Assembly (NCBI GenBank): GCA_001567485.1
Contig: JZRA01000142.1
Span: 62,001 to 126,000, forward strand
DNA: 64,000 nt
From: Chloroflexi bacterium OLB13
GTDB lineage: Bacteria; Chloroflexota; Anaerolineae; Aggregatilineales; Phototrophicaceae
Direction: 5' to 3'
A program made the position numbers and the translations under genes. The notes beneath the pieces are model-generated. The model was given only the letters and a program-made list of their open reading frames with translations. It searched no databases and was not told where the DNA came from. Shown one piece after another: positions 2,571 to 27,440 of the stretch. How positions within the stretch are numbered: the stretch's first letter is position 1; every line of letters starts with the position of its first letter.

Positions 2571-3176
2571 TTAGCCGAAAGGATGCGCCACCGGAGACAG
2601 CCCCAACGCACGCCTGATGAAGTACCATTGGAGCGCGGTTATCTCGCGGCGGAGCGCGGCGCTGTAGGCTGACGGGTTAAAGGGCCGGCGCGATACCGGC
2701 AGCTGCGCGTGTGGAATGCCCAGTTCAGAGAAGATCAGGGACGCGCGCAGCATGTGAAGGCGATCCGTCACGAGGATCGCTGATCGCAAGCCCTGTGCGT
2801 CCATCAAGGCGCGCGCGTACACGGCATTCTCTCCGGTGGTGCGGCTGGCGTCCTCCACGATAATCACATCTGGTGGAACGCCCTCCGAGACGAGGATCTC
2901 GCGGCAGGCATCGGCTTCGGTACGCTGCGCCGATCCCGTCCTGCCGCCGGTACACATCACGCGGTCAGCCAAGCCAATGCGGAACGCCTCGGCCGCGCGG
3001 CGGGTTCGGCGTTGAAGCGCAGTTCCGGCCGATCCATCATCCTCCAGCCCCGAACCGAGCACAATGATCACATCGGCTGGAGGCACACGGGCCTGAACGC
3101 CAGTACATCCGGCTGACCACAGGGCAAAAGCAAAAAGAGCTGTGGGTACAAGTGTGCGGACAGTACATCGGGCCAC
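2571..3176 (-). CDS. YdcF/ElyC-like DUF218 protein, second copy, possible lipoprotein
   Basis: About 201 residues. It shares with its neighbour the DVIIVLGSGLEDDG, CTGGRTG, SRTTGENAVYARALM and VTDRLHMLRASLIF blocks. The N-terminus has a hydrophobic stretch ending in SAGC, an imperfect lipobox, so membrane anchoring by lipid or by an uncleaved signal is possible. An ATG exists at 3200, but a putative promoter (-10 at 3211-3216) would start transcription around 3204, leaving almost no leader. The GTG at 3176 has AGGA eight bases upstream and is preferred. Confidence 0.65.
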   Translation of the reverse strand: MARCTVRTLVPTALFAFALWSAGCTGVQARVPPADVIIVLGSGLEDDGSAGTALQRRTRRAAEAFRIGLADRVMCTGGRTGSAQRTEADACREILVSEGVPPDVIIVEDASRTTGENAVYARALMDAQGLRSAILVTDRLHMLRASLIFSELGIPHAQLPVSRRPFNPSAYSAALRREITALQWYFIRRALGLSPVAHPFG

Positions 3177-3200
3177 GCAGTATGTCCTGCCACAATACAT

Positions 3201-3525
3201 CGGCGCCAGAAGTATAGGCTGAGATCATTAGACGACAATACGTGTTTCCGAAACCGGGCAACCGGCGCGGTTGACTGCTTGCGAAATGACGCTTAAATAG
3301 CTATTATCGGGGCCATCCTGCGGCGTTACTGATCGCAGGCTATGGTCGCAAAACGGTTGACAGAACCCGCCCGGCTTGGGCGGATAAGAAGTGTCTTCAG
3401 CATGCTGCACACGTCCCATTATGACGATGATGCAGCCTATCTTCTGACCGCCTAGGCAGTTGGCCGGAACATTTCAGCCGTGATTGCGGCCGCAATCGCG
3501 GTGTCTTGGATTCAGGAGCCTTCCG
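3201..3525. other. divergent intergenic region between the DUF218 gene and recX
   Basis: No convincing gene. It carries the minus-strand promoter at 3211-3238 and a perfect 6-bp inverted repeat (3367-3372 and 3378-3383, 5-nt loop). A TTGACA sits at 3357-3362, but no good -10 follows at normal spacing. The recX ribosome site AGGAG is at 3514-3518. Confidence 0.5.
3211..3238 (-). promoter_or_regulatory. putative promoter of the second DUF218 gene
   Basis: Minus-strand TTGTCG (3233-3238), a 16-bp spacer, then TATACT (3211-3216). It supports the GTG start at 3176. Confidence 0.45.
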
Positions 3526-4197
3526 GTGCCGGTCGTCACCGCTGTTGAGGTTCAAAAACGCAACAAGGAACGGGTCAACATTTATTTGGACGGGTCGTAC
3601 GCCTTCAGTCTGAACATCGTTGATGCCGCTTCTTTGCGCACGGGCCAATCGCTCAGTGACAGTGAAATCGCCGCGATGCGCGGTGAGGATGCTGTCGTGC
3701 GGGCGGTTGACAGCGCTGCCCGGTTTCTCGGGCATCGTCCGCGCAGCGTATCCGAAGTACGCCGGAATCTCAAAGACAAGGAGTTCGACGCCGGCATTAT
3801 CGACGCCGCGATCGAACGCCTTGAGCGAATGGGATACCTCGACGATACGGCGTTCGCGCAGTATTGGGTCGAGAACCGTATCCAGTTCAAGCCGCTCGGC
3901 TCATCTGCCCTGCGCTTCGAACTACGCCAGAAAGGGATCAGCGACGCCGTGATTCAACACGCGCTCGCCGATCTGAACGATCAACATGGCGCGCGTCAAG
4001 CCGCCGAACCACTGCTGCGACGGATGCGCGGTACTCATCGCCGTACAGCGTGGCAGAAACTCAGCACGACCCTTGCCCGTCGCGGCTTCGCTTTTGAAGA
4101 CGTCCGCGCCGCGCTCGACGAGTTGTTCCAAGACGTCGAGGCTGATGACGACACGTTCTTCGCAGGCGAGGATGACGACACCGAGCACGAACCCTAA
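3526..4197 (+). CDS. recX: recombination regulator RecX
   Basis: A 223-residue RecX-family protein. RecX binds RecA filaments and modulates strand exchange. The three-helix repeats are visible: ALRF and LGHRPRSVSEVRRNLKDKEF, then IERLERMGYLDDTAFAQYWVENR, then ALRFELRQKGISDAVI. The N-terminal extension (VTAVEVQKRNKERVNIYLDGSYAFSL) is the beta-strand segment common in Gram-positive and Chloroflexota RecX. The GTG at 3526 follows AGGAG by 7 nt and is a much better start than the ATG at 3484. The acidic tail (EADDDTFFAGEDDDTEHEP) is unusual. recA is not in the window; rny begins 15 nt downstream, so co-transcription is likely. Confidence 0.88.
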   Translation: MPVVTAVEVQKRNKERVNIYLDGSYAFSLNIVDAASLRTGQSLSDSEIAAMRGEDAVVRAVDSAARFLGHRPRSVSEVRRNLKDKEFDAGIIDAAIERLERMGYLDDTAFAQYWVENRIQFKPLGSSALRFELRQKGISDAVIQHALADLNDQHGARQAAEPLLRRMRGTHRRTAWQKLSTTLARRGFAFEDVRAALDELFQDVEADDDTFFAGEDDDTEHEP

Positions 4198-4212
4198 GAA
4201 TGGACACTAAAG

Positions 4213-5754
4213 ATGGAACCCATACTGGCAATAGCCCTTATCATCGCCGCCGCAGTCGCCGGCGCGGTGGGCGGGGTCTACTACTACTCCCGCCAACAGC
4301 GCGCGGCCGGCACAGCTGTCATACAGCTCGCTCAGGCGGAAGCGGAGAAGACCCGGCTGGAGGCCAAAGCGCAAGCTGAGGCGATCCTCAAAGACAGCGA
4401 ACATCGCAGCAAAAGCCTGTTGGACGAGACGGAGACGACCATCAACCGCCGCCGCCGCGACCTCGATGCCGAAGAAGAACGGCTCGCCCGCCGCAGATCA
4501 GACCTCGATCAACGGCTGGAACGCCTCGAAAAACAGGATCAGAACCTGAACAAGCGGCAGAGCAACCTCGACCGGCGCGAAAACGAGCTTAAGAAGGTTG
4601 AGCAAGAGAAAATTGAGGCGCTTCAGCGAATCAGCGAGATGACCCTCGACGAAGCGCGGCAGCAGGTCTTGGCGCGAGCCGAGCAGGACGCGCGCAACGA
4701 CATGGCGCGCATCATCCGACAGGTCGAGGCTGAAGCCAAAGTCGAGGCGGATACACGCGCCCGCGACGTGATCTCATTGGCGGTGCAGCGTCTCGCCAGC
4801 GAACATATCAGCGAGACCGCGGTGAGCGTTGTGCCGCTGCCGGGCGACGACATGAAGGGCCGTATCATCGGGCGCGCGGGCCGTAACATCCGCGCCTTCG
4901 AGATGCTGGCCGGCGTGGACGTCGTCGTGGACGATACGCCGGAAGCTGTGACCATCAGCAGCTTCGACCCGATCCGGCGCGAGGTCGCGCGGCGCGCCCT
5001 GTCCAAGCTGGTGGTGGACGGCCGAATCCACCCGGCGCGTATCGAGAAGCTGCTCGAAGACGCGCGCAACGAAGTCGACCTCATCATCCGTGAAGAGGGT
5101 GAGCGCGCGGCGTATGAAGCGGGCGTGCCCGGCCTGCACCCGGAGATCATCAAGCTGCTGGGCCGGCTCAAGTTCCGCTTCAGCTATGGGCAGAACATGC
5201 ACGGACACTCCATTGAGACCTCGCACATCGCCGGCATGATCGCGGCCGAGCTGGGCGCCAACGTCGAGATTGCGAAGGCCGGCGGCCTGCTTCATGATCT
5301 CGGCAAGGCCATCGACCATGAGGTTGAGGGCACGCACGCCATGATCGGCGCCGAGTTCTGCAAACGTTACGGCGTCAACGCCAAGGTGGTCAACTGTATC
5401 GCCAGCCACCATCACGAAGTCGAGCAGGAATGCGTCGAGGCCTACATTGTCGAGGCCGCCGACGCCATCAGCGGCGCCCGGCCCGGCGCCCGGCGCGAGA
5501 ACGTCGACAGCTACATTAAGCGCGTCAAGACGCTTGAAGACATCGCCAAGAGCTTCCCCGGCGTCGACACCAGCTACGCGCTGCAGGCCGGCCGCGAGGT
5601 TCGTATTCTGGTCAAGCCTGAGCAGGTCGACGAACTCGGCGCGGTGCAGCTCGCGCGTGACATCGCCAAGCAGATCGAAGACACCATGCAGTACCCCGGC
5701 ATGATCAAGGTGCACGTGATCCGCGAATCGCGGCATGTAGAGTACGCGAAGTAA
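4213..5754 (+). CDS. rny: ribonuclease Y
   Basis: 513 residues, close to the usual RNase Y length. Domains in order: N-terminal membrane helix (residues about 3-24), a long charged coiled coil (about 35-190, rich in Glu, Lys and Arg), a KH RNA-binding domain with GRIIGRAGRNIRAFE near residue 216, and an HD domain with HGHSIETSHIAG near 330 and LLHDLGKAIDHE near 359. RNase Y is a membrane-bound endoribonuclease that starts mRNA decay. The HD metal residues are present, so it should be active. It follows recX closely and ends before a clear terminator. Confidence 0.96.
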   Translation: MEPILAIALIIAAAVAGAVGGVYYYSRQQRAAGTAVIQLAQAEAEKTRLEAKAQAEAILKDSEHRSKSLLDETETTINRRRRDLDAEEERLARRRSDLDQRLERLEKQDQNLNKRQSNLDRRENELKKVEQEKIEALQRISEMTLDEARQQVLARAEQDARNDMARIIRQVEAEAKVEADTRARDVISLAVQRLASEHISETAVSVVPLPGDDMKGRIIGRAGRNIRAFEMLAGVDVVVDDTPEAVTISSFDPIRREVARRALSKLVVDGRIHPARIEKLLEDARNEVDLIIREEGERAAYEAGVPGLHPEIIKLLGRLKFRFSYGQNMHGHSIETSHIAGMIAAELGANVEIAKAGGLLHDLGKAIDHEVEGTHAMIGAEFCKRYGVNAKVVNCIASHHHEVEQECVEAYIVEAADAISGARPGARRENVDSYIKRVKTLEDIAKSFPGVDTSYALQAGREVRILVKPEQVDELGAVQLARDIAKQIEDTMQYPGMIKVHVIRESRHVEYAK

Positions 5755-17501: not shown

Positions 17502-18524
17502 ATGACCGCCTTACCCGCGCTTGAACGTTTCACGGCCGACACCGACGCCGAATTGTTTCGCATCCCGATGGTCGTGTTCCCCAACGGCTTCATCGCCTAC
17601 AGCTATCTTTTGCTGGGCCAAGGCGCGCCAACATTGATCGACTGTGGAAGCGGATTTCCCGACAGCGACAAGCACCTGATCGACGGCTTGAACGCTATCG
17701 CGGATGAGTTCCGCGTGCCGTTTGCGCTGCCGGACATCGAGCGTATCTTCATCACACACGGACATATCGACCATTTCGGCGGCGTCGCCAACATCGCCGA
17801 GCTGGCCGACGCGGCCGTGGGCGTGCACGAATTGGATCGGCGCGTACTGACCAATTACGAAGAGCGCGTTGTGATCGCCACGAAGGATTTGCGCGTGTAC
17901 CTCGAACGCGCCGGCATCGAGCCGGAAGCACGCCAAAGCCTGATCGAGATGTACGGGTTCGCCAAGCGGCATGTCCGGTCGGTGCCGGTCGCCTTCCATC
18001 TTGACGAAGATGAGCCGATCGACGGCATGTCGTTCATCCACGCCCCCGGCCACTGCCCCGGTCAGGTGTGCATCCGCATCGGCGACATCCTCATCAGCGC
18101 CGACCATGTGTTGAGCCACACCACCCCGCATCAAGCGCCGGAGAGCATCACGCACTACACCGGCCTCGGCCACTACCGCGAGGCGCTGCGCAAGGTCGCC
18201 AAATTGGACGGGATCCGTGTCGCGCTCGGCGGGCACGAAGACCCGATCTACAACCTGCCTGAGCGCATCGCGGACATCCTCGCCAGCCACGACCGCAAGC
18301 TGAACCGCGTGCTGGACATCGTGCGCGATGCAGGCGAACCGGTCACGATCAATCAGATCACACAAACGATGTATCCGGACAAGCACGGCTACAACATCTT
18401 GCTCGCGCTTGAGGAAGCCGGCGCGCACATCGAGTACCTGTATCAGCACGGGGCGCTCTCGGTCGCCAACCTGCGTGAAGTCGAGGCTGAAGACAACCCG
18501 GCGCTCAAATATGTTGCGTCGTAG
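17502..18524 (+). CDS. metallo-beta-lactamase-fold hydrolase
   Basis: 340 residues. The metal-binding set is complete: THGHIDHFGG (HxHxDH), APGHCPGQ (third His), SADHVLSHTTP (bridging Asp) and LGGHEDPI (fourth His). The C-terminal 80 residues form a helical winged-helix-like tail (ITQTMYPDKHGYNILLALEEAGAHIEYL), as in the LACTB2/RNase Z-like hydrolase group. Likely substrates are thioesters, lactones or phosphodiesters; none can be chosen from sequence. It is transcribed divergently from sugar ABC operon 1 and in the same direction as operon 2. Confidence 0.85.
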   Translation: MTALPALERFTADTDAELFRIPMVVFPNGFIAYSYLLLGQGAPTLIDCGSGFPDSDKHLIDGLNAIADEFRVPFALPDIERIFITHGHIDHFGGVANIAELADAAVGVHELDRRVLTNYEERVVIATKDLRVYLERAGIEPEARQSLIEMYGFAKRHVRSVPVAFHLDEDEPIDGMSFIHAPGHCPGQVCIRIGDILISADHVLSHTTPHQAPESITHYTGLGHYREALRKVAKLDGIRVALGGHEDPIYNLPERIADILASHDRKLNRVLDIVRDAGEPVTINQITQTMYPDKHGYNILLALEEAGAHIEYLYQHGALSVANLREVEAEDNPALKYVAS

Positions 18525-18658
18525 TTTAAGGGAATGTAAAATGTACCCGCCTGACGTTTAACATTGATGTGCCTCTCGGCTTAAAGACGTTCCACTCTAA
18601 TGGAAAACGTCAGGGAGAAGACCTGACATTAGGTTGTTTGCAAAGGAGAAAGTTCCAC

Positions 18659-20020
18659 ATGTCTCGCAGAAGTATGCTGTTGGCGGCATTGACCGTCATC
18701 ATGGCTTTGGTCGCGCTCGCACCGGCCATGGCGCAGGACAAGATTCAGATCCCGGTGTGGATCGCGTTTACCGACAGCCGCCTCGACTGGTCGCGCGAAC
18801 GCGCCGCGGAGTTCAACGAACTGTTCCCGCAGTACGAAGTCACCATTGAGGGTTACGCTGACTACGAATCGATCTTCGCGGCGGCCAGCCTCGCCTTCGA
18901 GCAGGGCACGCAGCCCGCAATCGTTCAGTACTTCGAGGCCGCGACGCAGGACGCCCGTGACGCTGGTTTCGAGGGCAACCCGCAGTTCAAGAGCGTGGCC
19001 GAAGCCTTCGGTGATCGCACCGAGGTCAACGGCCTGCCGGTGAATTTCGACGACTTCGTCGACGCCGCGCGCAACTACTACACGCTGGACGGCAGCTTCA
19101 CGTCGTTCCCGTGGAACACCTCGTCGGCGATCATGTTCAGCAACAAGACCATGCTGGAAGCGGCCGGTGTCGAGGGTATCCCGGCGACGTGGGCTGAGGT
19201 CGATGCTGCCTGCGAAAAGATCATGGCGATGGAGAACGCACCCGCCAACTGCATCACGTGGCCGAACCACGGCTGGTTCTTCGAGCAGGCCGTCGCCATG
19301 CAGGGCGCGGATCTGGTCAACAATGGCAACGGCCGTGAGGCCCGCGCGACCGAGACCTTCATCAACAGCGATGCCGCGGTCGCTTACGTGAGCTGGTGGA
19401 AGGATCTGCAGGACAAGGGCTACTACATCTACACCGGCGCGCAGCGTGACTGGGGCGGCACCTACAACGCCTTTGTCGCCGGGCAGGTGGCGATGCTGCT
19501 CTACTCGTCGTCGGACACTACCGCGCTCACCAATGACGGCGCTGCGGCAGGTTTCGATGTTGTCGCCAGCTTCTACCCGCACAATCAGGATGTCGAGTAT
19601 GCCGGCAACCTGATCGGCGGCGCCAGCCTGTGGCTGAGCAACGACCTGTCGACCGAGGTCGAGGACGGCGCGTTGACCTTCCTGCTGTACTTCACCAACA
19701 CCGAAAACGCGGCGTCGTGGCATCAGTTCACGGGGTACGTGCCCATCACCAAGTCGGCCATCGCCCTGCTTGAGTCCGAGGGCTGGTACGAGGAGAACCC
19801 GAACAGCTTGGTCGCCAGCGATCAGCTCGCCGCCGCGATCCCCAGCAGCGCGACCGCCGGCGCTATCGTCGGCGCGTTCCCGGCCATCCGCAACCACGTC
19901 ACCAACGCCATTGAGCAGGTGCTCGTGAACGGCCGCGATGTCACCGAAGCCCTGACCGAAGCCAAGGAACTGGCGGACGAAACGCTCGCGGAATACAACC
20001 TGCTATACGCAGGCGAATAG
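18659..20020 (+). CDS. extracellular sugar-binding protein, ABC operon 2
   Basis: 453 residues with a Sec signal (MSRRSMLLAALTVIMALVALAPAMAQ) lacking a lipobox. The mature part is a UgpB/MalE-type family 1 binding protein: RERAAEFNELFPQYEVTIEGYADYE, FPWNTSSAIMFSNKTMLEAAGVEGIPATWAE, and GGASLWLSNDLSTEVEDGALTFL. A glycerol-3-phosphate or oligosaccharide ligand is possible. ATG 18659 follows AAAGGAG; an upstream in-frame ATG at 18569 gives a non-signal N-terminus. A small inverted repeat (18609-18614 and 18622-18627) lies in the leader. Confidence 0.88.
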   Translation: MSRRSMLLAALTVIMALVALAPAMAQDKIQIPVWIAFTDSRLDWSRERAAEFNELFPQYEVTIEGYADYESIFAAASLAFEQGTQPAIVQYFEAATQDARDAGFEGNPQFKSVAEAFGDRTEVNGLPVNFDDFVDAARNYYTLDGSFTSFPWNTSSAIMFSNKTMLEAAGVEGIPATWAEVDAACEKIMAMENAPANCITWPNHGWFFEQAVAMQGADLVNNGNGREARATETFINSDAAVAYVSWWKDLQDKGYYIYTGAQRDWGGTYNAFVAGQVAMLLYSSSDTTALTNDGAAAGFDVVASFYPHNQDVEYAGNLIGGASLWLSNDLSTEVEDGALTFLLYFTNTENAASWHQFTGYVPITKSAIALLESEGWYEENPNSLVASDQLAAAIPSSATAGAIVGAFPAIRNHVTNAIEQVLVNGRDVTEALTEAKELADETLAEYNLLYAGE

Positions 20021-20051
20021 CCCCGCGCGTGAGAGGCTAATCTGAAATCCG

Positions 20052-20082
20052 CCTCGGGGTGAGACAAACGCTCACCCCGAGG
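20052..20082. promoter_or_regulatory. strong hairpin between binding-protein and permease genes, operon 2
   Basis: Perfect 12-bp stem (20052-20063 with 20071-20082) and 7-nt loop in the 85-nt gap between the binding-protein stop and the permease start. It is followed by a weak T-rich stretch. Same position as the hairpin in operon 1. Confidence 0.65.
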
Positions 20083-20105
20083 TCGTTTACGCTGAGGATG
20101 AAGGA

Positions 20106-21305
20106 ATGCTCCCGCCAGAACTCATCGTCTTGATCAGCATCGCAGCGCCTGCACTCGTAGGGGCAGCATGGCTGTATCGCGGCTCGCGGACGCTCTCCGC
20201 AGGTTTCATCGGCGTGATTGCCGGTGGCATCGGCGGTGCGCTGTTCATGGTGCCGCTTAACTACTGTACGTTCGAGGCAGACCGAACCAGCACCGATGTC
20301 GCGTTCGGCGTGTTTCTCATTGCGCTCGGCGCGGTGATCGGAATCGCCGTTGGCGCGGGCGTGAATCGAATCGTCGGATCCGGCAAGGGGATCAGTTCCC
20401 TGACCAGCGAACAGAACACGGCTGGCACGTTCAAGGGGACGGTCATTCCGTTCGCCCTGCTCGCGCCCACACTGGTGATCCTCGCCCTGTTTCTATATGC
20501 TCCGGCGCTCGACAACCTGCGCCTATCGACGCTTTTAGCACGGCTGGGCACGGATCGAACAGCGTTCGTCTGCGTCGACAACTTCACCAAGCTGCTCGAA
20601 CCTCGCCAAAATTACGGCCAAACGTTATACGCGACCTTCTTGATCTCGTTCTTTACGGTCATCATTGGGCTGGCGATCTCGCTGATGATCGCATACGTCG
20701 CGTATCAACCGGTGCGCGGCGCAAGTATTTATCGCACGCTGCTCATCTGGCCGTATGCCATCAGTCCACCCGTCGCCGGCATCATCTTCGGCATGGTGTT
20801 CAATGAGGGGGCCGGCATCATGAACCACCTCATTCGATCCGGTGGAGGAGTCCCGGTTCAATGGCTGCAAAGCGCCTCCATCGCGCCGTGGACGATCATC
20901 GCCGCCAGCGTGTGGAAGTCGATGGGATTCAACATCCTGTTCTACATCGCTGGCCTGCAAAACGTGCCCAAAGACCTAATCGAAGCGGCGGCTATCGACG
21001 GAGCCAATTTCGTGGTGCGGTTCCGCCGCGTGATCATCCCGATGCTCTCGCCGATCACGTTCTTCCTAATCATCACCAACATCACCTACGCGTTCTTCGA
21101 GACGTACGGCACCATCGACTTCCTAACGCGAGGTGGGCCGGCCGGCGCGACGTCCACCATGATCTATCGGATCGTAGACAACGGGTTAAACCAGCGCGAT
21201 CTCGGATCGGCGGCGGCGCAGTCGTTGATTCTCTTCAGCCTCGTCATCATCATCACGCTGATTCAGTTCCGCACCAGCGGCCGGCGTGTAACCTACGGGC
21301 GGTAA
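20106..21305 (+). CDS. carbohydrate ABC transporter permease (UgpA/MalF type) with extra N-terminal membrane domain
   Basis: 399 residues. The last ~290 are a standard UgpA-like permease, with the EAA loop DLIEAAAIDGANFVVRFRRVIIPMLSPIT. The first ~105 residues add about three hydrophobic segments (ELIVLISIAAPALVGAAWLY; GFIGVIAGGIGGALFMVPL; GVFLIALGAVIGIAVGAGV) that are not part of the family core. The added part looks like a small DUF-type membrane module; its function is unknown. The next permease starts 3 nt downstream. Confidence 0.87.
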   Translation: MLPPELIVLISIAAPALVGAAWLYRGSRTLSAGFIGVIAGGIGGALFMVPLNYCTFEADRTSTDVAFGVFLIALGAVIGIAVGAGVNRIVGSGKGISSLTSEQNTAGTFKGTVIPFALLAPTLVILALFLYAPALDNLRLSTLLARLGTDRTAFVCVDNFTKLLEPRQNYGQTLYATFLISFFTVIIGLAISLMIAYVAYQPVRGASIYRTLLIWPYAISPPVAGIIFGMVFNEGAGIMNHLIRSGGGVPVQWLQSASIAPWTIIAASVWKSMGFNILFYIAGLQNVPKDLIEAAAIDGANFVVRFRRVIIPMLSPITFFLIITNITYAFFETYGTIDFLTRGGPAGATSTMIYRIVDNGLNQRDLGSAAAQSLILFSLVIIITLIQFRTSGRRVTYGR

Positions 21306-21308
21306 CTT

Positions 21309-22205
21309 ATGGCTGAGCTTTCCCGCCAAATAGGGACTGTTGCCCCACACGACCGCACGACTTCACTGACTGGCCCGCCATCGTGGAAGCGGTTCGTCCC
21401 GGAGCGCTGGTATGCGCACGTCATCTTGTGGATCGCCTGTCTGCTGATCGGGTTCCCGCTGCTATATGCCGCGCTGGTGAGCACGCAGAACAACGCACAG
21501 GTCGCCAACTTCGTCCTGTCCCCCGGCAGTTCGTTCGCCGAGAACTTCCAGCAGGTGATGGTCAACCGCTATCTCGGCGAATATATGCTCAACACGATTT
21601 CGCTGGCGGTGGTCATCACCATCGGCAAGACCATCCTCTCGCTGCTGTCGGGGCTGGCGTTCGTTTACTTCCGGTTCCCCGGCAAGTGGATCGTGTTCGG
21701 GTTCGTGCTCGCCACGTTGATGATGCCGACTGAAATCCTGATTATCGGCTTGTACCGCTACGTGAGTGGAACGCTCGGATGGGGCGGCACGTTTCAAGCG
21801 CTCGCCGTGCCGTTTCTCGCCAGCGCCACCGGCACGTTCCTGTTTCGTCAGCACTTCTCGAACCTGCCTGCCGAGCTGAGCGAAGCGGCGCAGATGGATG
21901 GGGCCAATCCGCTTCAGTTCTTGTGGCGCGTGCTGATCCCCATGAGCTGGAACACTATCGGCGCGCTCGCGGTCATCCAGTTTGTGTATTCGTGGAACAT
22001 GTACCTGTGGCCGCAGCTTATCATGCAGGGTGGCGACTTTCAGGTCGTCCAAGTGGGCTTGCGTACCCTGCTGGCCGTTGATACCAGCATCGCCTATGGC
22101 CCGCTGATGCTCGGCGCGGTGATCGCCAGCATCCCACCCGTGATCGTGTTCATCATCCTGCAGAAGCAGTTTATGAGCGGCTTCCAGATCACGACGGACA
22201 AATAG
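21309..22205 (+). CDS. carbohydrate ABC transporter permease (UgpE/MalG type)
   Basis: 298 residues, six predicted membrane helices. The EAA loop reads LPAELSEAAQMDGANPLQFLWRVLIPMSW. A hydrophilic N-terminal tail of about 35 residues precedes helix 1. It completes the transmembrane part of importer 2; like operon 1, no ATPase is encoded here, so an ATPase such as that at 60485 would have to serve it. Confidence 0.9.
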   Translation: MAELSRQIGTVAPHDRTTSLTGPPSWKRFVPERWYAHVILWIACLLIGFPLLYAALVSTQNNAQVANFVLSPGSSFAENFQQVMVNRYLGEYMLNTISLAVVITIGKTILSLLSGLAFVYFRFPGKWIVFGFVLATLMMPTEILIIGLYRYVSGTLGWGGTFQALAVPFLASATGTFLFRQHFSNLPAELSEAAQMDGANPLQFLWRVLIPMSWNTIGALAVIQFVYSWNMYLWPQLIMQGGDFQVVQVGLRTLLAVDTSIAYGPLMLGAVIASIPPVIVFIILQKQFMSGFQITTDK

Positions 22206-22219
22206 GGCCGGGTAACGAC

Positions 22220-23311
22220 ATGCGGCGGCGGGTCGCTTCGATGGCAGCGCTCGCCGCCGTGTTCATCACGACCGCCTCGCAGCCGTGGCGCGCGCTGTCC
22301 CTGCAAACCTGCACATCGGCCGAACGCGATGCGATCTTCGCGCAAGTTCCCGATTACACACCGAGCCAAACCGCGGAATTCGTCCGGCTAACCGATGGTC
22401 GATTCACGGTCGGCAGCGAGCCGTTCGACGTGCACGGCGTGAACTACTACCCCGCCCGCTTCCCGTGGCGGCGTTTCCTGACGGCCGAACTCGACGACGT
22501 CCGCCGCGAGTTTGCCCTGCTCTCCGGCGCCGGTTTCAACACCCTGCGACTGTTCCTGTGGCATGAGGCGCTGTTTCAGTGCGAGGCCGACGGCGCTGTT
22601 CCCGAACCGCAGGGGATGCTCAAGCTCGATGCGTTGATCGGGTTGGCCGCCGATCACGGATTCCGGCTGATCCTCACCCTGCACGACCTGCCCGACCTCG
22701 ACCATTACCGTCTCTACGACGATCACGCCCATACGCGCGCGCAGACCGAGTACCTCGCCCACCGCTATCGGGACGAGCGCGCCATCCTCGCGTGGGATTT
22801 GCGCAACGAGGGCGATATCGACTACGGCAGTCAGGCCGCTTTCGGTGGGCGGTTTCCGCGCCGCGCGGTGCTGGATTGGCTCGGTCGAACAGCGACAATT
22901 GTCCGTGACAGCGCGCCGGAACATCTCGTCACCGCAGGGTGGCTGTATCACGCCGAGGACACCGCGCCTTACGTCGACTTCATCAGCTTCCATCACTGGG
23001 GGGACACCGCCGACCTTGAGCGCCGGACCCTCGATCTGCGCGCCCGAACCGGCTTGCCGATCCTGCTGCAAGAGGTCGGCTACAGCACGTTCGATCGCAG
23101 CGAGGCGGAGCAGGCGCGCCTGCTCCGGTCGGCGCTGAACACGGCGGAACGCGCCGGTCTGCTGGGTTGGATGGTGTGGGCGGCGTTCGACTTCCCGCCG
23201 GACGTCACGTGTTATCCCGCCCCGTGCCTGAGCGCGCTGAACGCCGAACACTTCTTCGGACTGTGGAGCGCGGAACACCAGCCCAAAGCCGCAGTCGACG
23301 CCGTGCGCTGA
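22220..23311 (+). CDS. secreted GH5-like glycoside hydrolase
   Basis: 363 residues. A signal-like N-terminus (MRRRVASMAALAAVFITTAS) is followed by a TIM-barrel glycosidase. FDVHGVNYYPARFPWRRF opens the barrel, LILTLHDLPD gives strand 3, AWDLRNEGDIDYG carries the acid/base Asn-Glu pair near residue 199, ISFHHWGD the conserved His, and LPILLQEVGYS the nucleophile Glu near 285. This resembles clan GH-A, mannanase/cellulase-like (GH5). It lies 14 nt after the permease gene, so it may process the glycan imported by operon 2. Confidence 0.78.
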   Translation: MRRRVASMAALAAVFITTASQPWRALSLQTCTSAERDAIFAQVPDYTPSQTAEFVRLTDGRFTVGSEPFDVHGVNYYPARFPWRRFLTAELDDVRREFALLSGAGFNTLRLFLWHEALFQCEADGAVPEPQGMLKLDALIGLAADHGFRLILTLHDLPDLDHYRLYDDHAHTRAQTEYLAHRYRDERAILAWDLRNEGDIDYGSQAAFGGRFPRRAVLDWLGRTATIVRDSAPEHLVTAGWLYHAEDTAPYVDFISFHHWGDTADLERRTLDLRARTGLPILLQEVGYSTFDRSEAEQARLLRSALNTAERAGLLGWMVWAAFDFPPDVTCYPAPCLSALNAEHFFGLWSAEHQPKAAVDAVR

Positions 23312-23377
23312 CGGGGCGGGTCACATGCTGTACAATGGCTATCCAGTACGTTTGCACTCCATAAGCGACCGGAATTC

Positions 23378-25453
23378 ATGGCTTTCGAGTATGAAGCCCT
23401 CGTTGGGCACTTGAATATCGTCGGAGGGCGCGCCGTGAGCGCCAACCCACCCGGCCAGATTATCGAGGTTGCCCCGGCCAAGGCGGCGCGCGGCCGCGAA
23501 GTCGATACGTTCTTCGCGCTCGTGCTGCCGGCCGGCTCGCATGTCGCGCCTGCGTCGTTTTATGAGAACATGGCGCAGCTTGCGGCCGAAAAGTACTTCG
23601 AGAGCGCCGGCAGCGTGACCGCGGCCCTGCGCGAAGTCCTGACCTTCCTGAACCAGAACCTCAACGATCACAACCGGCAGCAGCCCGGTCAACCGTTTGT
23701 CGCGGATATGACGTGCGCGGTGCTGCGCGGCGAAGACCTCATCATCGCGCGGGTCGGCGGGGCGGTGGCGGGGCTGTGGGTAGAAGGCGTTCTCACCCTG
23801 CTGCCTGATAGTCTCCCGCGTGAGGTTCCCGCCGCGCTGGGCGCCGCGCACATGCCGGAGATCAAGCTGACGCGGCACCGAGTGGCGACCAACACCCGCC
23901 TGATGCTGGCCGACCATCACCTGCTCGAACTCAACCCGGAGCGCGTCGCGCTGGCGCTGGGCGAGTTGGGGTTAGACCTCGCGCTCGTGCGCATGAAAGA
24001 AAACGCGCTGCTCACCCTGACGCTGACGCTGGTCGAGTTCGTCCCGCCTGAGATGCCCAGTCCGCCCGCCGTGCCGGAAGGCGAATCGAGCGTAGCTGTT
24101 CAACAAGCAGTGCGCGGCGCGGAAACGGGAGCGCGCGCCCAAGCGTCCTCGGCCGGGTTGGGCTTCGTGTTCCTCGGCATCTGGCGCGTGATCGGCGGCG
24201 TCGCTGGCGCGATCGGCCGCGCGCTCGGGCTTATCAGCACGGGGATCGACAAAACGTTTGGCCCCGATCCAGACGGCCGCAAACGCTGGTTTCAATCGTC
24301 GTTGGTCACCGGCGCGGCGGTGTTCATCCCGGTGCTGGTCGTCGGGCTGGTCGTGGCGTTGTGGCTGGGCGGGACGGGCCGTTCGGAGTTCGAGTTGTGC
24401 TACGCCGAGGCGACCAATCTCAGCGAGATCGCGCGGACGGTGCCGAGCAGCAACCCGGAGAGCCTGCGATCAGCGTGGTCGGCCGTCCTCACCGTGGCGA
24501 ACCGCTGCCTGACGCTGCGTGCGGACGACGAGGACTCGACGCGTATCCGGCGCGAGGCGCAGGGTGTGATCGACTCGCTGGATCAGATCACACGGCGCGA
24601 CGCCCACCTGCTGCAAAGTCTGCCCGACGCGACTTTTACGCGCATCCTGCTGCAAGGGCTTGACCTTTACGTGCTCGATTCGAGCCGCCAGCGCGTCTAC
24701 ACCACGACCCTGTCGCAGGATGGACTGTCGCTGACCCGCAGCCTGACCCCAATCCTCGACATGAGCCGTGGCGCGAACGTCAACGGATACGTCATCGGCG
24801 ACTTCATCGACATCGGATTCTCGAACTCGACCGATTCGCTGTTTGCGCTCGACACCAACGGCGTGCTGGTGCAGTGCAGGCGGCGGCAAGTTCAGGAATG
24901 TGAGGCCGAGCAGCTTCGCTCGAACGAGGACTGGAGCGATCCGAGCGCGATGGTGATTTGGGGCAGCGACGACCGCATCTACCTGCTCGACGTGCCGGTC
25001 AACCAGATCTGGCGCTACGACAACTCCGGCGGGTCGTATTCCGGCATCGCCAACCCATACTTCGACGGGGCCAATCAAGGGGCGCTGCAGCTTGCCGTGG
25101 ACTTCAAGATCGACCGCGACGGCAACGTGTTCATCCTGCGCTCGGACGGCGTGGTGATTAAGTACTTCCGCGCGCAGATTCAGGAATTTCGGCTCGGCGG
25201 CTTCCCGCCCGGACAGGAACCCAGCAACGGCTCGTCGCTGACCCTCGACGAGGATCCCATCGGCCGCGCATTTTACGTCGCCAGCCCAGCGACCCAAACG
25301 ATTCACGAAATGACGCTCGGCGGCACATTCGACGCCAACATCAAGGCGTCCGACGATACGGTCTTCAGCGCCTTAGGTGGCGTGGCGAGCAACCCTGCCC
25401 AACAGCTTCTCTACGTTGCGTCTGGCAACGGTATCTTCGTCATTCAGAAATGA
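23378..25453 (+). CDS. membrane protein with degenerate PP2C-like domain and C-terminal propeller-like domain
   Basis: 691 residues, not assignable to a named protein. Residues about 1-215 look like a PP2C/SpoIIE-type phosphatase fold (VADMTCAVLRGEDLIIARVGGAVAGLWVEGVLTLLPDS, then ALGAAHMPEIKLTRHRVATNTRLMLAD), but the canonical metal-binding Asp residues are not evident, so it may be non-catalytic. A variable segment leads to a membrane helix at about 310-331 (FIPVLVVGLVVALWLGG). The outer part begins with a helical stretch and continues as repeated strands with NHL/YVTN-like turns (FKIDRDGNVFILRSDGVV, LYVASGNGIFVI). It heads a four-gene group ending at 27440. A sensor linking cytoplasm and surface is a guess. 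Confidence 0.6.
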   Translation: MAFEYEALVGHLNIVGGRAVSANPPGQIIEVAPAKAARGREVDTFFALVLPAGSHVAPASFYENMAQLAAEKYFESAGSVTAALREVLTFLNQNLNDHNRQQPGQPFVADMTCAVLRGEDLIIARVGGAVAGLWVEGVLTLLPDSLPREVPAALGAAHMPEIKLTRHRVATNTRLMLADHHLLELNPERVALALGELGLDLALVRMKENALLTLTLTLVEFVPPEMPSPPAVPEGESSVAVQQAVRGAETGARAQASSAGLGFVFLGIWRVIGGVAGAIGRALGLISTGIDKTFGPDPDGRKRWFQSSLVTGAAVFIPVLVVGLVVALWLGGTGRSEFELCYAEATNLSEIARTVPSSNPESLRSAWSAVLTVANRCLTLRADDEDSTRIRREAQGVIDSLDQITRRDAHLLQSLPDATFTRILLQGLDLYVLDSSRQRVYTTTLSQDGLSLTRSLTPILDMSRGANVNGYVIGDFIDIGFSNSTDSLFALDTNGVLVQCRRRQVQECEAEQLRSNEDWSDPSAMVIWGSDDRIYLLDVPVNQIWRYDNSGGSYSGIANPYFDGANQGALQLAVDFKIDRDGNVFILRSDGVVIKYFRAQIQEFRLGGFPPGQEPSNGSSLTLDEDPIGRAFYVASPATQTIHEMTLGGTFDANIKASDDTVFSALGGVASNPAQQLLYVASGNGIFVIQK

Positions 25454-25459
25454 GGCCGC

Positions 25460-25813
25460 ATGTCCGCTAATCCGCAAAACCCGCAAAGCCCACCCAACGC
25501 GAATCGCCTGCGCATCGACTTCCCGCCCGACTTGAACGCCGAATACGCAAACGCGGCGATCATCAACTCGACGCACAGTGAGATCATCCTCGACTTTCTG
25601 CAAATCCTGCCGAACGACCCGCGTGGGCGCGTGCGTGCCCGGATCGCCATGACGCCAGCCAACGCCAAGCTGCTGCTGCGCGCGCTGCAAGACCGGATCG
25701 CGCATTTCGAAAAGACGCAGGGTGAGATCACATTACCACAGCGGCCGCCCTCGTTGGCCGATCAGTTGTTCAACCTCGGCAGTGAGAATCCCGACCCCAA
25801 CGAACCGAAGTAG
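25460..25813 (+). CDS. DUF3467 family protein
   Basis: 117 residues. The core AEYANAAIINSTHSEIILDFLQILPNDP with RARIAMTPANAKLLLRALQDRIAHFEKTQGEI matches the DUF3467 pattern (YaNav..s..Ef.lDF..., R...sP..AKrL..aL). Members are small cytosolic proteins of unknown function. A GAGG site precedes ATG 25460, which lies 6 nt after the previous stop, so translation is probably linked. The C-terminal 25 residues are Pro/Asn-rich. Confidence 0.75.
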   Translation: MSANPQNPQSPPNANRLRIDFPPDLNAEYANAAIINSTHSEIILDFLQILPNDPRGRVRARIAMTPANAKLLLRALQDRIAHFEKTQGEITLPQRPPSLADQLFNLGSENPDPNEPK

Positions 25814-25821
25814 GCGCTTGA

Positions 25822-26457
25822 ATGGACAACCTCGGCGACATCACAGAGTCCCTACGCGGTGCGATGGCGGCCCGCACCGCCGCCCGTGACGCCGCCCTTG
25901 CCGCCTCGCGCGAGCTGATCCGCCACTGTTCGGGCTGCATCCGCGCCGCCCATCGGCGTGAGTGGGATCAGGTCGATGCGCAGTTGGGGGTCATCGCCGC
26001 CGATGCCGCGACGCTGCGCGCTGGCCTCGCCGAGTATCCGGAGCTGTATCACAGCGGCTATGTGCAGGATGCGCTCAAAGAGGTCGTCGAGGCGCACGCC
26101 GCGTCCGCGATCCTGCGCGGTGAAAGCACGCTGCCGACGCCGGACGCGCTCCACGCCGAACCCGCAACCTACATGCTGGGGCTGGCCGAAGCCGCGACCG
26201 AGCTGCGGCGCGCGATCCTCGATTTGCTGCGACAGTCCGAAGACCATGCGCCAGAAGCGGAACGCCTGCTCGCCGCGATGGACGCCATCTACGACCAGCT
26301 CGTCACATTCGACTTTCCTGAAGCCGTCACGCGCGACCTGCGCCGCCAGACCGACATCGTGCGCGGTGTGCTGGAACGCACGCGCGGCGACCTGACCACC
26401 ACGCTTCAGCAAATCCGGCTGGTCAACGCGCTCAAGCGGTTCGAGGAGAGGATGTGA
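25822..26457 (+). CDS. translin-like protein
   Basis: 211 residues, all helical in appearance. The pattern fits the translin superfamily: an N-terminal helix with RELIRHCSGCIRAAHR, then VQDALKEVVEAHAASAIL, the family hallmark YMLGLAEAATELRRAILDLLR, then FDFPEAVTRDLRRQTDIVRGVLERTRGDLTTTLQQ. Translin family proteins form octameric shells that bind RNA or ssDNA, with RNase activity in the translin-TRAX complex. Whether the TRAX-type catalytic acidic residues are present cannot be settled by eye. It lies 8 nt after the DUF3467 gene and overlaps the next gene by 4 nt. Confidence 0.72.
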   Translation: MDNLGDITESLRGAMAARTAARDAALAASRELIRHCSGCIRAAHRREWDQVDAQLGVIAADAATLRAGLAEYPELYHSGYVQDALKEVVEAHAASAILRGESTLPTPDALHAEPATYMLGLAEAATELRRAILDLLRQSEDHAPEAERLLAAMDAIYDQLVTFDFPEAVTRDLRRQTDIVRGVLERTRGDLTTTLQQIRLVNALKRFEERM

Positions 26458-27440
26458 CCGTGCGCGGCCGGATGTTCGGGCTAGTGCTGTTCCTCGTGCT
26501 GGCGGCCGTCTTGCCAGCGTGCGATCCGATGGCGCAGGTGGTCGAGCCGACCGTGCCGACTCCGACGCTGTCCGGCACGGCGACCGCGACACCGACCGCC
26601 ACCCTCAGCCCGACGCCACGGCCCACCGCTACGCCTGAACTCACCGCCACGCCGACCCCGTTCCCGTGCGACGAGGACGGGCTGGTCATCGACATCACCG
26701 ACAACCACAGCGAGACAGCCCGCGAGGACATCCCCTACACCGCGTATCTGCCGCCCTGTTACGGCTCGTCGTCGGCGCGGTTCCCGCTGCTGCTGCTGAT
26801 CGCGCCGGGGCCGGGCCGCCGCGATTTGATGGAGACCCTCAACCTGCCCGCGATCCTTGACGAAGGCATCCGGTCAGGTGCGTACCCGCCGGCGATCGTC
26901 GTCATCGCGGAGTTGGGCCGGCTCGGATCCCGCACGCAGTTCCCGCCGGATGCGTCGGCGTCGACGGTCATCAAAGATGAGCTGCTGCCGGCCATCCAGC
27001 GCGATTTCTGCGTGGTCGAACAGCGCACGTTCCGCGCCATTGGCGGATTCGGACAGGGCGGGTTCTGGGCGATACATACCGCGTTCACAGCGCCCGACCT
27101 GTTCAGCGTGATCGGCGGGCACAGCGCGGTGCTCGACAACAGCGTGCCGCCTGCCGAAAACCCGCTGGAGATCGCGCGTAACAGCACGATCTTGCCAAAC
27201 GCCAACTTCCGCATGTACTTCGACAACGGCGCGCCGGACGAAGCCGCGTCCAACGGCCTGCAGCTGCTCAGTGACCGGCTGACCGCGCGTCAAATCCCGC
27301 ACACGTACATCATCAACCCGGTGGGCCAAGCTGATGCCGAGTATTGGGCGTCGCACGTTGAGGAGTATCTTGAGTTCTACGGCCGGACATGGCCGCGGGA
27401 CTACGGCGTGCTGCCAGACTGCCGCGAGCCAAGCCCGTAG
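26454..27440 (+). CDS. esterase D-like lipoprotein lacking the nucleophile serine
   Basis: 328 residues from GTG 26454, which overlaps the translin-like stop by 4 nt (GTGA). Signal plus lipobox LPAC at about residue 23, then a Thr/Pro-rich linker (TPTLSGTATATPTATLSPTP), then an alpha/beta hydrolase domain of the esterase D/Fes type: YTAYLPPCYGSSSARFPLLLLIAPGPGR, VVIAELG, and GGFGQGGFWAIHTAF. In active relatives the last motif is GxSxGG; here the Ser position is Gly (residues about 197-203). A candidate histidine (WASHVEEYLEFYGR) remains. It is probably a binding or structural protein rather than an active esterase. Confidence 0.75.
   Translation: MTVRGRMFGLVLFLVLAAVLPACDPMAQVVEPTVPTPTLSGTATATPTATLSPTPRPTATPELTATPTPFPCDEDGLVIDITDNHSETAREDIPYTAYLPPCYGSSSARFPLLLLIAPGPGRRDLMETLNLPAILDEGIRSGAYPPAIVVIAELGRLGSRTQFPPDASASTVIKDELLPAIQRDFCVVEQRTFRAIGGFGQGGFWAIHTAFTAPDLFSVIGGHSAVLDNSVPPAENPLEIARNSTILPNANFRMYFDNGAPDEAASNGLQLLSDRLTARQIPHTYIINPVGQADAEYWASHVEEYLEFYGRTWPRDYGVLPDCREPSP

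Follow-up and report, generated by a model that had tools for sequence, protein, structure and literature searches.

Do four genes packed within a few nucleotides (nt) of one another form a single system, or does a conserved gene pair lie there between unrelated neighbours? The question is raised by a stretch of 64,000 nt from Chloroflexi bacterium OLB13 (contig JZRA01000142.1, positions 62,001 to 126,000), which we call the window. Here a gene encoding a PP2C-like membrane protein with an NHL-type propeller is followed by genes for a DUF3467 protein, a translin-family protein and a pseudo-esterase lipoprotein. Our answer, held with somewhat better than even confidence, is that DUF3467 and translin are a conserved partnership of a single-strand binder with a C3PO-type nuclease, to which the propeller and esterase genes were joined by a rearrangement at the genus level. 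The features of the locus, all on the forward strand, are as follows.

23308-23336, + strand: candidate promoter CTGACG-17-TACAAT, just 5′ of the propeller gene
23378-25453, + strand: propeller gene (PP2C-like/NHL), from the open reading frame (ORF) call
25460-25813, + strand: DUF3467 gene, from the ORF call and PF11950
25822-26457, + strand: translin-family gene, from the ORF call and PRK14562
26454-27440, + strand: pseudo-esterase lipoprotein gene, from the ORF call and PF00756

An earlier, sequence-only reading of the window had described these ORFs, and its spacings are reproduced here: a 6-nt gap, an 8-nt gap and a 4-nt overlap, in gene order. Most of its domain calls also hold, namely the PP2C-like/propeller, DUF3467 and translin-like proteins and an esterase without its nucleophile. 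Its proposal of co-transcription is probably right. The junctions are tight, the genes share a strand, and the only sigma-70-like site of the region lies just 5′ of the first gene, one such match being also the number expected by chance.

To learn which parts of this arrangement recur, we surveyed 199 genomes of one class, which its named loci indicate to be Anaerolineae. Adjacency was read from listed coordinates, and gene pairs were counted over the genomes where both genes were located. DUF3467 occurs in 98 of these genomes and translin in 180; in a sample of 151 genomes from the whole phylum, 82 have translin. Of the 88 class genomes with both genes located, 52 carry DUF3467 as the gene next upstream of translin, in the same orientation. 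A propeller-protein homologue is present in 172 of the 199, and its gene adjoins translin in a single one of 106 genomes, that of the window. Recurrence of the order PP2C-like, DUF3467, translin in Chloroflexota, which the sequence-only reading had put forward as its check, was thus not seen; the DUF3467-translin part alone recurs. Class-wide conservation of the full four-gene order was rejected as well, as the survey did not find it.

The product of 25822-26457 belongs firmly to the translin family. It falls in the NCBIfam group PRK14562 (E=2e-67), whose product name there is ‘haloacid dehalogenase superfamily’ and which we take to be the COG2178 translin group. Its profile matches the Archaeoglobus C3PO (AfC3PO) structure 3zc1 in the PDB (E=3.3e-34), and its AF2 model (pLDDT 96) has the all-helical translin fold over its whole length. 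When compared by VIA with AfC3PO 3zc0/3zc1, the model scores Z 24.2, with a root-mean-square deviation of 1.4 over 188 residues and 32% identity; Z is about 22 against Nanoarchaeum C3PO and 20.8 against the Trax chain of human C3PO, while unrelated helical proteins reach Z 9. Two alignments, of 19 and 29 sequences, show no variation at the active-site acids E87, E90, E123 and E127, and only a single copy of a translin-type gene was detected in the window genome. In archaeal C3PO, the metal-binding acids face the inside of an oligomeric shell, and short RNA, single-stranded or duplex, is cut or stored; by homology, the window translin would be an active RNase of this kind, subject to the caveat of an Asp-to-Glu change considered below.

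DUF3467 is recognized by Pfam PF11950 (E=8.5e-17, 61.4 bits against a curated cut-off of 25). Other Pfam families gave chance-level matches only, and two profiles searched by sequence against the PDB found no chain, RNA polymerase complexes included. The AF2 model, built from 56 sequences with a pLDDT of 84 (more than 90 in its core), shows a strand-strand-strand-helix fold, for which Foldseek returned nothing significant (E above 0.1). VIA ranked COMMD domains highest (Z 6.2), followed by Borrelia Bpur (5.3), PC4 (5.1), MoSub1 (4.9 and below), the Burkholderia PC4 homologue BPSL1147 (4.6), PURA repeats and MRP1 (MRP1/2), which binds guide RNA. Below COMMD, the neighbours are mostly PUR, PC4 and MRP1/2 proteins. 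Along the third strand (residues 56-64), lysine or arginine occupies position 55 in 84% of sequences, 57 in 89%, 59 in 39% and 61 in 100%, and K70 is invariant. These basic residues alternate along the strand and therefore would share one face. DUF3467 probably binds single-stranded nucleic acid, and our leading hypothesis is that it works like a PUR/PC4 protein. Bpur, for comparison, is a homodimer that binds RNA, double-stranded DNA and single-stranded DNA (PMC3764826).

The presence of nucleic-acid-binding proteins among these weak fold matches agrees with the genes that surround DUF3467. Of the 70 DUF3467 loci sampled, 37 have ssb and/or translin as neighbours, in the orders ssb-DUF3467-translin (21), DUF3467-translin (11) and ssb-DUF3467 (5). 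The ssb neighbour was identified by Pfam; the RNase Y, RtcB, archease, rpoB/C and RecN neighbours were named from reading their sequences. RtcB/archease genes stand beside DUF3467 in other loci, and a Cas4-like PD-(D/E)XK nuclease gene lies downstream in some DUF3467/translin loci. Among Bacteroidota, where 118 of 148 sampled genomes have DUF3467, rpoC is the gene just before it in 25 of 116 genomes, and it directly follows an RNase Y gene, preceded by a ZapA-like gene, in four Bacteroidales loci (L159, L160, L166 and L181). Taken together, the fold matches, the basic residues and these gene contexts point to single-stranded RNA or DNA as the ligand. The Bacteroidota loci in which an rpoB-rpoC operon ends with DUF3467 include L146, L151, L154, L158, L162, L172, L173 and L178.

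These contexts also admit other roles for the pair. With ssb upstream, a Cas4/PD-(D/E)XK nuclease gene downstream in several genomes and RecN in some loci, the pair may act in DNA repair as part of a set that processes single strands, its translin binding single-stranded DNA instead of RNA; NeC3PO has been crystallized with single-stranded DNA as well as single-stranded RNA (5jre, 5jrc). We consider this rather unlikely, since the Cas4-like neighbour appears in a subset only and the presence of RtcB/archease, RNase Y or rpoC next to DUF3467 speaks for RNA. That Cas4-like gene follows translin in L076, L077, L079, L115 and L118, and DUF3467 in L161. The short ORF before it looks like a Cas4 N-terminus, with the FC motif, and has a transmembrane segment, and the two are possibly a split, membrane-bound Cas4-like nuclease.

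The rpoC context bears on a second alternative, in which DUF3467 is a transcription-associated, PC4-like protein that binds RNA polymerase and is paired with translin to clear transcripts or R-loops, not to turn over small RNAs. Fold neighbours such as PC4, MoSub1 and BPSL1147 are consistent with it, as is fission yeast, whose translin suppresses genome instability tied to RNA polymerase II release (PMC9246224). The link to RNA polymerase is not exclusive, however, for RNase Y, ssb, cysS and other genes neighbour DUF3467 as well, and its profile matches no PDB chain, those of RNA polymerase complexes among them. We view this transcription role as possible but doubtful.

In the account that we prefer, the functional core of the locus would be the DUF3467-translin pair. 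Translin would form an oligomeric shell of the archaeal type, its metal-binding acids turned inward, in which short RNA of one or two strands is cut or stored. DUF3467 would be small and PUR/PC4-like and would probably act as a homodimer that grips single-stranded DNA or RNA with the basic face of its sheet, and that may contact translin physically, either passing substrates to it or shielding them from it. In other genomes, DUF3467 may do likewise with SSB, RNA polymerase or RNase Y. Extending this further, we tentatively propose that DUF3467, widespread in Bacteroidota and common in Anaerolineae, could be an unrecognized PUR/PC4-like single-strand binder serving RNA polymerase, RNases and SSB, and that in Anaerolineae it could be the dedicated substrate-handling partner of a bacterial C3PO ribonuclease.

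Several observations weigh against this account. The fold matches of DUF3467 are weak: they fall at Z 4-6, under the level for a reliable shared fold, and those to PUR/PC4 proteins (Z 4.5-5.3) lie below COMMD; the model, with three strands, is moreover one short of the four in PUR. In translin, E123 aligns to an AfC3PO residue that is Asp in 3zc1 and was mutated to Ala in the RNA-bound 3zc0. The translins of the class have Glu at this position, and RNase activity is consequently not assured. DUF3467 and translin are on different contigs in 34 class genomes, and a congener of the window genome (G498) has no translin beside its DUF3467; the partnership is therefore not obligatory. Finally, DUF3467 also occurs in Bacteroidota, outside the phylum sampled for translin.

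We now turn to the outer two genes, for which G498 is the most informative genome. On its contig L225 the end of the propeller gene (3-998) precedes DUF3467 (1019-1399), and the esterase (1497-2558) comes next, an order like that of the window but with translin absent from that place. It follows that the four-gene order arose by rearrangement at about the level of the genus. The most economical history takes the DUF3467-translin pair as ancestral in the family; the propeller gene and the esterase then became linked to it, and translin later left its place in G498. Between DUF3467 and the esterase of G498 lies a palindromic repeat, AACCTCACCCC...GGGGTGAGGTT, which occurs in more than one place on the contig and suggests how translin was lost there, by deletion or relocation. 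Phage head genes, including a capsid/protease-like ORF, lie directly downstream of the G498 esterase (about 2973-5745).

The same genome decides whether the four-gene order could be an assembly chimera or an annotation accident. The window assembly is fragmented (148 contigs), and other family members have translin on one contig and the propeller gene and the esterase elsewhere. Yet the propeller-DUF3467 junction, with the esterase in the same place, is present in the independent assembly of G498; the linkage is thus genuine and no product of faulty assembly. As the ORFs are also intact and their junctions tight, an artefact is highly improbable, and G498 refutes it except for the position of translin.

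The esterase has a CE1/esterase-D fold (Pfam PF00756, E=2.5e-13), and its profile matches the alpha/beta hydrolase core of feruloyl esterase 7xrt (E=1.4e-7). It is a lipoprotein with a TP-rich linker. Its nucleophile motif reads GGFGQGG in the window and GGVGRGG in G498, compared to GGISRGG in relatives, and the site of the catalytic His reads GQAD in both congeners, compared to G[EG]H[ND]. Hence both the catalytic Ser and His of CE1 esterases are lost in window and congener, the His going beyond the missing nucleophile already seen in the sequence-only reading. Three family relatives from other genera keep both residues, which dates the loss to the genus of the rearrangement. In other family members, the closest relatives of the esterase are on contigs apart from translin and the propeller gene.

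The propeller protein has a PP2C-like domain, a single transmembrane helix at about residues 308-330 and an NHL-type propeller outside. The helix position and N-in topology are a reading of the sequence, the PP2C-like part being placed in the cytoplasm because basic residues precede the helix. Pfam gave no match above cut-off for the window protein alone. A family profile from 18 relatives, by contrast, matches the PP2C structure 2xzv (tPphA; E=3e-7) with its N-terminal domain and the NHL propeller of PknD, 1rwi (E=4e-4), with its C-terminal domain, and several relatives match Pfam SpoIIE, PP2C_2 and NHL directly. Of the PP2C metal-binding Asp motifs sought in the window protein (DGHGG, GDSR, SDGL and DN), the GDSR aspartate falls opposite a non-acidic residue in the profile alignment, and neither DGHGG nor DN is readable. 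The motifs being unreadable, ‘degenerate PP2C-like’ is a fair description, as the sequence-only reading had it, and phosphatase activity is not claimed. An LCP (LytR-CpsA-Psr) gene comes next after the propeller gene in 21 of 53 other loci, for example in L032, L038, L039, L049, L054 and L056. It is plausible that this class-wide PP2C-like/propeller protein represents an undescribed family of envelope sensors. In two loci of more distant relatives, L104 and L105, the propeller gene lies between guaA-sbcD-like and tsaD-alkyltransferase-like genes.

Could all four genes nevertheless be one envelope signalling system, in which the propeller senses, the pseudo-esterase aids ligand capture and DUF3467-translin acts on RNA? 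The tight spacing and the one promoter-like site upstream would fit such a system: the window string CACATGCTGTACAAT is nearly identical to CACATGCGGTACAAT 5′ of the same gene in G498, where the -10-like GTACAAT and its surroundings recur. So would the retention of propeller-DUF3467-esterase in G498, and the loss of Ser and His in both genus members, which implies that the esterase was kept while catalytically dead and linked. Other findings speak against it. DUF3467, translin and the esterase were all absent from the 1.5-kb flanks of the 53 other propeller loci, the propeller gene meets translin in the window genome alone among 106, the G498 cluster is without translin, and the esterase relatives sit on other contigs with their catalytic residues kept. 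We therefore judge a four-gene system improbable. The sequence-only reading had proposed a ‘signalling or RNA-linked’ system at the envelope; its RNA link survives for the DUF3467-translin pair only, and its four-gene envelope system does not. On our preferred account, the propeller protein and pseudo-esterase would be unrelated envelope genes that the genus-level rearrangement placed under the same promoter.

Upstream of the propeller gene, window positions 17502-23311 hold a metallo-beta-lactamase-like gene, an ABC sugar-transport set (a binding protein and two permeases) and a GH5 glycosidase; one permease region also precedes the propeller gene in G498. A role of the four genes in anti-phage defence was dropped, as PADLOC gave no match for any of the four proteins.

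The interest of the locus comes mainly from the link between DUF3467 and translin. Within the collection of papers searched, we found a single passing mention of DUF3467 and no work on its function, nothing on the role of bacterial translin homologues (COG2178, prokaryotic translin), and nothing relevant on Bacteroidota RNA polymerase accessory proteins. The class-wide gene pair supplies a specific candidate partner for bacterial translin, and the DUF3467 family, widespread in Bacteroidota, gains a testable activity, the binding of single-stranded nucleic acid near RNA polymerase and RNases.

Each protein of the locus resembles a known system and departs from it. DUF3467, as modelled, shares with Bpur (3nm7), PC4 (1pcf) and BPSL1147 (5a4o) a sheet followed by one long helix in about 100 residues, and with PUR/PC4-like proteins its nucleic-acid gene neighbours and the basic residues on one strand; it differs in the low Z, the lack of detectable sequence similarity and the missing fourth strand of PUR. 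The window translin has the whole-length fold of archaeal C3PO (AfC3PO 3zc0/3zc1; NeC3PO 5jr9/5jrc/5jre) and active-site acids at equivalent places, but it is bacterial, has Glu for the Asp mutated in 3zc0, and its gene lies beside DUF3467 and often ssb. Like CE1/esterase-D feruloyl esterases (7xrt, 1jjf), the pseudo-esterase has an alpha/beta hydrolase core, whereas in the window genus both Ser and His are replaced and a TP-rich lipoprotein linker is present. The propeller protein follows the plan of Mycobacterium PknD, a cytoplasmic signalling-type domain, one transmembrane helix and an extracytoplasmic NHL-type propeller, with a degenerate PP2C phosphatase fold where PknD has a kinase.

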